Assembly: GCF_008065155.1 (NCBI RefSeq)
Contig: NZ_CP042819.1
Location: forward strand, 1,302,001 to 1,366,000
DNA from: Octadecabacter sp. SW4
Lineage (GTDB): Bacteria > Pseudomonadota > Alphaproteobacteria > Rhodobacterales > Rhodobacteraceae
Length of the DNA stretch: 64,000 bases
Direction: 5' to 3'
This document shows positions 59,440 through 63,114 of this stretch, piece by piece. The notes under the pieces were generated by a model. The model saw only the letters and a program-made list of their open reading frames with translations, was not told the origin of the DNA and did not search any database. Numbering within the stretch: position 1 is the first letter of the stretch; each line of letters starts with the position of its first letter. The position numbers and the translations under genes are program-made.

Positions 59440-60075
59440 CTAGGTGCGCGGGATTGCGGCCAGCGTCGTGGCCAGATCGCCGTAGCCTGTCGCGCGCCGC
59501 TCGAATTTCAGCCCAAGGCGGGCGGCGCAGTCTTTGGCCTTGGCCGTGAGCGCCGGATTATCGGTTTGTGCCTGATAGACCAGTTTTTCGTAATTGCCGA
59601 AATACATGTCGCGCAGCTCCGGGTGGCGATCCAGGCCCAGCGGTTTCCACACGAAGGCGTCAAACTGGCGCACAAGGAAGTCCGTCAGGTAGAAGGCGGT
59701 GACTTCTTCACGCGCCGCAAAGGCATCGTTGCCTTCAAAAAACGAATAACAATGCGGGCCCTCCACCATTTTAACGCCCAATTCCTTGCACTTTTCCAAC
59801 AACTGCCCGCCTGTGCCGCAATCGGCATAGACGACAAAGATGTCGTCGTAAGCGCCACGATGTTTTGTCACGGCGGCCTCGATCGCGGGGGTGATCTTGT
59901 CTGGCGTGTTGTGAAAGATCGCCGGAAGGCAGTGCAAATCCAGATGATCCCAGCCGTTTGTGGCTTTCAGCGCGAGGATTTCATGGGCCAGCGCACCACA
60001 GGCGAGCAACAGCACCCGACCTTGCCCCTTGGCGGGCAGTCCGCTGGTTGTCAGGCTGTGATCGTCCGGTCGCAT
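59440..60075 (-). CDS. DUF1638 family protein
   Basis: The 211-residue protein matches DUF1638 (LLACGALAHEILAL, LDLHCLPAIFHNTPDKI, VYADCGTGGQL). Conserved Cys and His residues in these blocks (CG, HC, DCGTGG) may bind metal or a cofactor. The family often lies next to corrinoid methyltransferase genes, as here: the corrinoid protein gene is 72 bp upstream on the same strand. A role in corrinoid-dependent methyl transfer or its upkeep is inferred from that linkage only. Confidence 0.82.
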   Translation of the reverse strand: MRPDDHSLTTSGLPAKGQGRVLLLACGALAHEILALKATNGWDHLDLHCLPAIFHNTPDKITPAIEAAVTKHRGAYDDIFVVYADCGTGGQLLEKCKELGVKMVEGPHCYSFFEGNDAFAAREEVTAFYLTDFLVRQFDAFVWKPLGLDRHPELRDMYFGNYEKLVYQAQTDNPALTAKAKDCAARLGLKFERRATGYGDLATTLAAIPRT

Positions 60076-60147
60076 CGTTTGATCCCATGAAAAAGCCCCG
60101 CGCCAGCATGGGACACGGGGCCGGATTGTGCAAATCCAGTGCGTGTC

Positions 60148-60849
60148 CTAGGCGCTGGCACCCTGATTGTGTTTGCGCGCCATAAAGGTTTTTGCGGTTT
60201 CCACGGCCACGGCGGCGTCGCGGCAGTAGGCGTCCGCACCGATGGCCTTGCCGAATTCCTCGTTCAGGGGGGCGCCGCCGACCAGCACCGTGTAATCCTC
60301 GCGGATGCCTTTTTCGACCAGCGTATCAATCACGACCTTCATGTAGGGCATGGTGGTGGTCAGCAGGGCGGACATGCCAAGGATATCGGGTTGTTCGGCC
60401 TCGAGCGCCTCAAGATAGGCCTCGACCGCGTTGTTGATGCCAAGGTCGACTACTTCGAAACCGGCGCCTTCCATCATCATGCCCACAAGGTTCTTGCCGA
60501 TGTCGTGGATATCGCCCTTGACGGTGCCGATCACCATCTTGCCCACCCGCGGCGCACCGGTTTCGGCCAAAAGCGGCTTGAGGATAAACATCCCGCCCTT
60601 CATGGCGTTGGCGGCGAGCAGCACTTCGGGGACGAACAGAATGCCGTCACGGAAATCATGACCGACGATGGTCATGCCGCCGACCAGCGCCTCGGTCAGG
60701 ATGCGGTAAGGCTCCCACCCGCGGTCCAGCAGGATATGCACGCCTTCCTCGATCTCTTCCTTGAGGCCATCGTAAAGGTCGTCGAACATCTGCGCGACAA
60801 GATCTTCGTCGTTCAATTCGCTCAGGATGATGTCGTCGTCTTCGGACAT
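60148..60849 (-). CDS. Methyltransferase corrinoid protein (B12-binding)
   Basis: The 233-residue protein has a helical cap domain (about 15-95) and a Rossmann-like B12-binding domain with the signature DIHDIG-K (His115 as lower cobalt ligand) and GGAPLNEEFGKAIGADAYCRDA. It shuttles a methyl group between partner methyltransferases, as do MtbC/MtmC proteins and the middle domain of MetH. The start at 60849 follows GGGAGCGA. The nearby homocysteine methyltransferase gene is an obvious partner. Confidence 0.9.
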   Translation of the reverse strand: MSEDDDIILSELNDEDLVAQMFDDLYDGLKEEIEEGVHILLDRGWEPYRILTEALVGGMTIVGHDFRDGILFVPEVLLAANAMKGGMFILKPLLAETGAPRVGKMVIGTVKGDIHDIGKNLVGMMMEGAGFEVVDLGINNAVEAYLEALEAEQPDILGMSALLTTTMPYMKVVIDTLVEKGIREDYTVLVGGAPLNEEFGKAIGADAYCRDAAVAVETAKTFMARKHNQGASA

Positions 60850-60995
60850 GGGTCGCTCCCGCATGGGTGTTTCTTGGCGCCAGAATTGCGCTGAAACGTC
60901 GCAACTGGCTGAACCGATTGCGACACTGCCTGAACCGTGACCGACGTTAACACAAATGAAAAATTTGCGGAATCGTGATGCGGGTCTTTCATGCG

Positions 60996-61010
60996 TTCCT
61001 GTTATGTTCT
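60996..61010. promoter_or_regulatory. LexA (SOS) box upstream of the radical SAM gene
   Basis: GTTCCTGTTATGTTC is a perfect GTTC-N7-GTTC direct repeat, the LexA operator of alphaproteobacteria. It lies 12 nt before the radical SAM start codon, where a bound repressor would block transcription. Confidence 0.8.
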
Positions 61011-61021
61011 AATGTTGGCCC

Positions 61022-62104
61022 ATGTCGCATGCACCGCCACCCCTGCACGGGACCGCCCGCGGGCGGGCAGCCCAAAGCAATGACACCAACCGCTTTGAAC
61101 CCTACAGTCGCGAGGCGGTGGATGATGGCTGGGCGCGGATGGATGATTTGCCGCCCCTGCGCACCGAGGTCCGCGAGGAGGTGTCGCGCCGTGTGATTTC
61201 GCGCAATACATCGCCCGATTTGTCGTTTGATCGCTCGGTGAACCCTTATCGCGGCTGCGAACACGGTTGTATTTACTGTTATGCGCGCCCCGGGCATGCC
61301 TATCTGGGCATGTCACCCGGGCTTGATTTCGAGACACGTCTGGTGGCCCGCCCCAGTGCGCCTGAACAGTTGCGCCGCGAGCTGTCGCGCAAAGGCTACG
61401 TGCCCGATACACTGGCGATTGGCACCTATACGGACCCCTATCAACCGATTGAAAAGGCGCATGAAATCATGCGCGGGTTGGTGCAGGTGCTGGCGGCTTT
61501 CAATCACCCGCTGGCGATCGTGACCAAGGGTGTTCTGATTGAACGCGACATTGATATTCTGGCACCGATGGCGGCCAGAGGGCTGTTGCGGGTCGGCATT
61601 TCGGTCACCAGTCTGGACGCGAAAATCTCTCGGGCGATGGAGCCGCGCGTACCCGCCCCCAAACGGCGCCTGCAAACGATCCGTCGCCTGGCCGATGCCG
61701 GGATTCCGGTGCGCGCGATGGTGTCACCGGTGGTGCCCGGGCTGACCGATCACGAGGTTGAGGCGATACTGGCCGCCTGCGCCGATGCGGGCGCGGTGGC
61801 GGCCAGTTCCATCGTGCTGCGCCTGCCGCGCGAGGTTGCGCCGCTGTTTGCCGATTGGGTGCAGGCGCATTTTCCCGATCGCGCCGCGCGGATCATGAAC
61901 CGCGTGCGTGATTTGCATGGCGGCAAGGATTATGATCCCGCCTTTGGCAGCCGCATGACGGGGCAGGGGGAATGGGCGGCCCTTTTGCGCGCAAGGGTCA
62001 AGCTGGCCACGGCGCGGCTGGGCCTGGATCGCAGGCTGACACCGCTGCGCAGGGACCTGTTTGCGGTGCCACCAAAAGCGGGCGACCAACTGGCGCTGTT
62101 TTAG
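61022..62104 (+). CDS. PA0069-family radical SAM protein (SplB-related)
   Basis: The 360-residue protein has the radical SAM cluster motif C-x3-C-x2-C at Cys79, Cys83 and Cys86 (CEHGCIYCYARP) and the family's GTYTDPYQPIE block. PA0069/Rv2578c-type proteins are related to spore photoproduct lyase; a DNA-repair role has been suggested but not settled. The LexA box directly upstream supports a DNA-damage link. It lies between, and opposite to, the corrinoid and homocysteine methyltransferase genes, with a 4-bp convergent overlap with the latter. Confidence 0.9.
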   Translation: MSHAPPPLHGTARGRAAQSNDTNRFEPYSREAVDDGWARMDDLPPLRTEVREEVSRRVISRNTSPDLSFDRSVNPYRGCEHGCIYCYARPGHAYLGMSPGLDFETRLVARPSAPEQLRRELSRKGYVPDTLAIGTYTDPYQPIEKAHEIMRGLVQVLAAFNHPLAIVTKGVLIERDIDILAPMAARGLLRVGISVTSLDAKISRAMEPRVPAPKRRLQTIRRLADAGIPVRAMVSPVVPGLTDHEVEAILAACADAGAVAASSIVLRLPREVAPLFADWVQAHFPDRAARIMNRVRDLHGGKDYDPAFGSRMTGQGEWAALLRARVKLATARLGLDRRLTPLRRDLFAVPPKAGDQLALF

Positions 62105-63114
62105 GCCTTGCGCCGACCACGGCGGGGCGCGCGCACAGGGCCGGCCCCATCCGTGCCATCCGAGGCCGAGGAAAATGCGCCAAGCTGCGCGGTGATCTGG
62201 TCCAACGTCGGACGCGGACCCGCGGGCAGTGTTTCCAGCGCCTCGCGCATCGCCGCCAGATGTTCGGGCGTGGTGCCACAGCAGCCGCCGATGATCGTCG
62301 CGCCTGCATCACGCGCCAGCACGGCGTAATCGGCCATCAACGCTGGCGTGCCGTCATAGTGGATATGTCCGTCATGATATTTCGGGATGCCAGCGTTGCC
62401 TTTGGCGATGATCGGCTGTTGCGGACCAAGTGCTGAAAACCCAAGGATCGTGCGCATCAGGTCGGACGCGCCCGTGCCGCAGTTTGCCCCGAATGCCAGG
62501 GGTTTATGCGTCAGTTTATTGACCATCTTGACCATTTCCGCGCTGGTCAGCCCCATCATCGTGCGCCCGGCTGTGTCAAAACTCATCGTGCCGCACCAGG
62601 GCATATCGGCCAGCGCGAATGCCTCGCTCGCGGCGATGAATTCCTCGGCGGCGCTGATCGTTTCGACCCAGAGCACATCGGCCCCGCCCGCCTTGAGCCC
62701 CTCGGCCTGTTCGTGGAACATTTCCACCGCGCTTTCATGGGTCAAGGTGCCCATCGGCGACATGATTTCGCCCGTGGGGCCGACAGAACCGGCAACGACG
62801 ACCGGGCGGCCGGCGGCGTCGGCCACCTCGCGCCCGATTGCCGCGGCGATTCGGTTCAGATCATGCACGCGTGACTGCGCCCCGTGCAGTTTCAGGCGCG
62901 AGGCGTTGCCGCCAAAGCTGTTGGTCAGGAAAATGTCGCTGCCCGCGTCGACTGCCCCCTGATAAAGGGCGGTGATCCGGTCGGGGTGGTCTTCGTTCCA
63001 CATTTCCGGTGCATCGCCCGACATCAGCCCCATGTTGAACAGGTTTGTGCCTGTCGCGCCGTCGGCCAGCAGCCAGTCGCGGGTTTCAAGGAGGCGGGAA
63101 AGGGCGTTTGTCAT
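62101..63114 (-). CDS. bmt: Betaine/homocysteine S-methyltransferase family
   Basis: The 337-residue protein is a homocysteine methyltransferase barrel with the zinc ligands Cys212 (FGANCGTG) and Cys278-Cys279 (IIGGCCGTTPEH), and an N-terminal LADGATGTNL. It corresponds to the N-terminal module of B12-dependent methionine synthase. It could transfer methyl from betaine or, more likely given the neighbouring corrinoid protein, from a methylcorrinoid to homocysteine. Split methionine synthases are reported in Rhodobacteraceae. A folate-binding module was not found in the window. Confidence 0.87.
   Translation of the reverse strand: MTNALSRLLETRDWLLADGATGTNLFNMGLMSGDAPEMWNEDHPDRITALYQGAVDAGSDIFLTNSFGGNASRLKLHGAQSRVHDLNRIAAAIGREVADAAGRPVVVAGSVGPTGEIMSPMGTLTHESAVEMFHEQAEGLKAGGADVLWVETISAAEEFIAASEAFALADMPWCGTMSFDTAGRTMMGLTSAEMVKMVNKLTHKPLAFGANCGTGASDLMRTILGFSALGPQQPIIAKGNAGIPKYHDGHIHYDGTPALMADYAVLARDAGATIIGGCCGTTPEHLAAMREALETLPAGPRPTLDQITAQLGAFSSASDGTDGAGPVRAPRRGRRKA

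Follow-up and report, generated by a model that had tools for sequence, protein, structure and literature searches.

The PA0069-family radical SAM gene of Octadecabacter sp. SW4 lies directly downstream of a LexA operator that is conserved at the same place in most of its alphaproteobacterial orthologs, and its upstream sequence indicates that it very probably belongs, as a single-gene unit, to the SOS regulon, repressed by LexA and predicted to be damage-inducible. The gene occupies positions 61022..62104 (+ strand) of the 64,000-nucleotide stretch analysed here (the window) and encodes 360 amino acids, the ATG at 61022 being the earliest possible start of an open reading frame that runs to 62104. 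With an operator conserved in about 150 sampled genomes, this radical SAM family of poorly defined role is firmly tied to the SOS response.

The LexA operator and its conservation

The operator, GTTC-CTGTTAT-GTTC (GTTCCTGTTATGTTC; 60995..61009, + strand), was identified by motif match and by its conservation in orthologs, and is separated from the ATG by 12 nt (61010-61021). A GTTC-N7-GTTC repeat 12 nt before the start codon had been reported in the initial annotation of this DNA; the element is indeed present, although it had been made to start at 60996, one base too late. The same annotation had cautioned that so short a repeat can occur by chance, which is correct: the number of copies in the window is what chance would give (two observed vs. 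1.83 expected), and 94 perfect copies are found in the 3.54-Mb genome, 82 of them inside genes as delimited by crude gene calls. When these 94 sites are scored with a matrix of ortholog boxes, which includes the window box itself, the window operator ranks first.

We sampled upstream regions from 80 genome contigs, 30 Rhodobacteraceae loci, and 100 other genomes from the same phylum. A perfect GTTC-N7-GTTC lies upstream of 154 of the 165 alphaproteobacterial orthologs, these counts being not fully independent because a few loci represent the same genome drawn from two collections. The 11 exceptions comprise seven Rhodobacteraceae, three members of other alphaproteobacterial families, and one locus (L046) without upstream sequence; six of the seven Rhodobacteraceae carry a single mismatch at the expected operator place, and the seventh is truncated, with only 63 nt upstream. 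Among the 163 orthologs with at least 150 nt of upstream sequence, the spacer is of seven nucleotides in 153, and each of the other spacers occurs in 0-5 orthologs, except for a spacer of 11 (23 orthologs). The latter signal, GTTC-N11-GTTC, was rejected as an operator, as it falls within codons of the divergently oriented corrinoid gene. The background in ortholog flanks amounts to seven sites in 446 kb over the two strands, equivalent to 0.0027 per strand and 350 bp. That orthologs in other Rhodobacteraceae should keep the repeat at the same place, the check proposed in the initial annotation, is borne out by the operator-to-ATG distance in this family: of 99 cases, 65 have exactly 12 nt and 79 fall within 11-13 nt. 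Two records labelled Actinomycetota, Mycobacterium sp. KBS0706 (L054) and Enemella evansiae (L030), have alphaproteobacterial-type genes with GTTC-N7-GTTC and are probably mislabelled or contaminated assemblies.

Outside the Alphaproteobacteria the operator changes type. In place of GTTC-N7-GTTC, 32 of 47 beta- and gammaproteobacterial orthologs carry upstream CTGT-N8-ACAG, which is the LexA box of these two classes; it is present in all five betaproteobacterial loci (Duganella, Caballeronia, Burkholderia, and two Paraburkholderia) and, as CTGTATATATAAACAG, in the gammaproteobacterium Aeromonas caviae, while the Legionella adelaidensis ortholog, counted within the 47, has neither motif upstream. 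Among 40 sampled non-alphaproteobacterial genomes of the phylum, CTGT-N8-ACAG was found in 26 and was absent from 14 orthologs, two of which have TTAG-N6-TACTA, presumably the Xanthomonas/Xylella-type LexA box; in the other 12 of the 40, no recognised operator was found. Four actinobacterial relatives were also inspected, and none had a perfect GAAC-N4-GTTC immediately upstream. At one further locus (L124, genome G587), a long palindrome, CCCTCTGATCAATATAGTACGATCGTTCTATATTGATCAGAGGG, lies about 50-100 nt upstream of the ortholog match, taking the place of a known LexA box, and is perhaps another operator or a terminator.

That the operator is conserved, in a form matching the LexA motif particular to the lineage, argues strongly that damage-inducible expression has been selected for. 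A chance repeat before a gene outside LexA control would fit the number of copies in the window and the location of most genome copies inside genes. It would not account for the same place and exact spacing in nearly all alphaproteobacterial orthologs, nor for the substitution elsewhere of the LexA boxes proper to other lineages. The count being at chance level, yet conservation coming with an exact spacing, we therefore reject this explanation as highly improbable.

Predicted promoter architecture and the SOS regulon

Alignment of 78 Rhodobacteraceae promoters on the operator gave a consensus consisting of TTGCAA, 17 bp that include the whole 15-bp operator, TATATT, about 6 nt, and the start codon. 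The first T of the -35 element is found in 92% of these promoters, and the T, A, and last T of the -10 element in 81%, 92%, and 77%, respectively. On this alignment, the window gene has a predicted -35 element TTTCAT (60987..60992, + strand) and, directly 3' of the operator, a predicted -10 element TAATGT (61010..61015, + strand), spaced by exactly 17 bp. In the whole 3.54-Mb genome, the composite pattern T-N7-GTTC-N6-TGTTC-TA-N3-T has a single match, which is that at the window gene. Because only 6 nt separate the -10 element from the ATG, as in 65 of 99 Rhodobacteraceae orthologs, the mRNA is predicted to start on the A of the ATG (61022, + strand) or on an adjacent nucleotide, and is probably leaderless. 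With such a geometry, LexA bound to GTTC-N7-GTTC would fill the interval from the -35 to the -10 element, sterically blocking RNA polymerase; upon DNA damage, RecA would trigger LexA self-cleavage, and the probably leaderless mRNA would be made.

The genome encodes LexA, and perfect GTTC-N7-GTTC boxes also precede lexA, recA, uvrA, uvrD, and a SRAP gene. Membership of the radical SAM protein in the SOS response, as initially proposed, is thus supported by a conserved box, by the sharing of its motif with core SOS genes, and by an operator that follows the lineage. The box of the SRAP gene, carried by the 104-kb replicon C3, is located 40 nt before the ATG, and imuA/imuB-like frames follow; on this replicon (locus L284), the LexA box at 2819-2833 and the genes at 1193-2778 constitute a SOS mutagenesis cassette, besides which a chromosomal imuA/imuB pair exists (L223). 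High-scoring boxes at L223 and at L284:1621 were rejected as imuB operators, as they lie inside imuA codons (KNKxGT). Another LexA-like box, GTTCTTCAATTGTTC (L265:6959-6973; G000:C1 near 2695467), is among the best-scoring sites and sits between a ribonucleotide reductase gene, 141 nt off, and a DUF1489 gene whose ATG is about 9 nt away.

Protein family and relation to spore photoproduct lyase

The family assignment made initially is confirmed: the protein matches the PA0069-family radical SAM profile NF033668 over its full length (1-348) with 495 bits, for a cut-off of 360, and the Radical_SAM domain PF04055 with an E-value of 1.3e-20. All 37 diverse homologs keep the cysteines of its CX3CX2C motif (C79, C83, and C86), and no other column contains cysteine in more than nine of them. 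Residue 136, close to the presumed active site, is a tyrosine in the window protein and an asparagine in 105 of 110 motif matches (GTNTDPYQP); the tyrosine variant was observed in the genus of the window and at one other locus. The Rv2578c-family radical SAM proteins of Actinomycetota (NF038135) form a sister family, to which the window protein scores 225 bits, below the cut-off of 430. PA0069 and Rv2578c belong to the Pseudomonas and Mycobacterium LexA regulons, Rv2578c being under LexA control in M. tuberculosis; nothing usable linking either gene with LexA was found in the literature searched. The window protein has no match among PADLOC defence families, and phage records gave only short, remote matches.

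An AlphaFold model built from the 37 homologs (mean pLDDT 79, pTM 0.79) was used to search the PDB for similar folds. The top six matches are all spore photoproduct lyase (TM 0.53-0.55), the best with an E-value of 5e-10, a TM of 0.54, and 13% identity, which in this model amounts to a moderate fold match; the next protein is SkfB, at 3e-7. The lyase was found by the fold search alone, as searches of PDB sequences with the protein or its profile did not retrieve it. We then compared the two proteins by MAFFT alignment, using the letters of PDB chain 4fhc_A. SplB (4fhc), the nearest solved fold, likewise has CX3CX2C, and the two proteins align co-linearly across this motif and the C-terminal half; the second tyrosine of the SplB HYCY motif is a phenylalanine in the PA0069 family consensus and a tyrosine in the window protein.

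The hydrogen donor of spore photoproduct lyase is Cys140/141. No counterpart of this cysteine was found in the 37 homologs, in which the corresponding region reads G-T-N/Y-T-D. Moreover, the spl-family profile TIGR03886 matched nothing in the genome of the window, the radical SAM gene included, and in 61 Rhodobacteraceae genomes it gave below-cut-off matches in two and none in 59. The protein thus appears, from these alignments, to have a lyase-like framework in which one defining feature of spore photoproduct lyase fails. Because the catalytic, hydrogen-donating cysteine is missing, it should not be called a spore photoproduct lyase, and the name "SplB / DNA photolyase" is unwarranted. The initial description of the gene as SplB-related should accordingly not be taken to mean a photoproduct lyase. 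Control differs too, SplB being under spore control, as opposed to the predicted SOS control in vegetative cells for the window gene. The genome of the window encodes one protein of the DNA_photolyase family.

Proposed function and earlier reports

The product would be a radical SAM enzyme holding a [4Fe-4S] cluster on C79/C83/C86, with a fold nearest to that of spore photoproduct lyase, and would most likely reverse a DNA lesion directly, although we favor such direct repair only by a modest degree. Both the lesion and the route of hydrogen transfer may differ from those of spore photoproduct lyase. Under LexA control, the enzyme might alternatively be a true spore photoproduct lyase that, like the Bacillus enzyme, repairs 5-thyminyl-5,6-dihydrothymine. 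This possibility is supported by the top PDB fold matches, the co-linear alignment, and the SplB-like name that annotators give to such proteins (PMC3323433 and PMC3925955), but it is improbable because the cluster cysteines alone are invariant in the family, Cys140/141 being without counterpart, and because TIGR03886 finds no member in this genome.

It is somewhat less improbable, though still unlikely, that a LexA-controlled enzyme acts on RNA, the nucleotide pool, or a protein rather than in DNA repair: enzymes of the radical SAM type act on many substrates, the model also matches several other radical SAM folds, and SOS regulons include non-repair genes. Against such targets, the nearest fold is that of a DNA-repair enzyme, and damage control has been retained across lineages whose LexA motifs differ; DNA is the presumed substrate. 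Extended to the whole family, direct reversal leads to a tentative proposal, to which we give slightly less than even credence, namely that PA0069 proteins are widespread SOS enzymes of Pseudomonadota that reverse DNA lesions directly and independently of light, through a chemistry unlike that of spore photoproduct lyase, and that they have stayed under LexA despite the change of motif.

LexA control of a gene named splB was predicted in alpha- and betaproteobacteria, Rhodobacteraceae included, as early as 2012, in BMC Genomics (PMC3323433). That article uses a species set including Paracoccus denitrificans and Rhodobacter sphaeroides, presents splB as the first SOS-regulated photoreactivation enzyme, and states that its regulation was not seen in gammaproteobacteria. 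This splB is very probably the PA0069 gene, because P. denitrificans DSM 413 (L078) carries a PA0069 gene with the box and because 59 of the 61 Rhodobacteraceae genomes searched lack the true spl family. Our data likewise show, in both alpha- and betaproteobacteria, a SplB-like gene with the LexA box of its class, but differ in that a gammaproteobacterium, Aeromonas caviae, has a LexA box, and in that the photoproduct-lyase function assumed there gains no support from a protein lacking the cysteine; no description of the splB promoter geometry was found in the text consulted.

Other reports count splB among the core SOS genes of Bacteroidetes and describe it as under SOS control in several species (PMC8565304), link SplB-like radical SAM proteins to SOS gene neighborhoods (PMC3765255), and enter a radical SAM gene of Streptomyces venezuelae, vnz_31145, in the table of the LexA regulon, together with values from ChIP-seq and from RNA-seq under mitomycin C (PMC9380542). 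Since SOS control was published in 2012, the window gene represents a well-supported further case of a regulation already known, to which the present analysis adds the assignment to the PA0069 family, the promoter geometry, the gammaproteobacterial extension, and the failed test for spore photoproduct lyase. The initial annotation had seen in the operator a functional clue for this family; the SOS context stands, but its novelty does not, in view of the 2012 prediction (PMC3323433), and regulation shows in what context the enzyme works rather than what it acts on.

The radical SAM gene is monocistronic, the upstream corrinoid-protein gene being divergent and the downstream betaine-homocysteine methyltransferase (BHMT)-like gene convergent, an arrangement kept in 27-28 loci. 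A PA0069-family match was found in 183 of 249 Rhodobacteraceae genomes; since about a quarter of them lack it, the gene is common but dispensable and not essential to the SOS response. At 59440-60864 of the window, a DUF1638 gene adjoins the MtgC-like corrinoid-protein gene, and together with the nearby BHMT-like gene (62101-63114) they look like a methyl-transfer cluster. At six loci from several Hyphomicrobiales and other alphaproteobacteria (L026, L028, L050, L053, L057, and L066), an RNase HII gene lies 3' of the PA0069 gene on the same strand, with gaps of 15-192 nt, and rnhB is possibly SOS-inducible where it occupies this downstream position.
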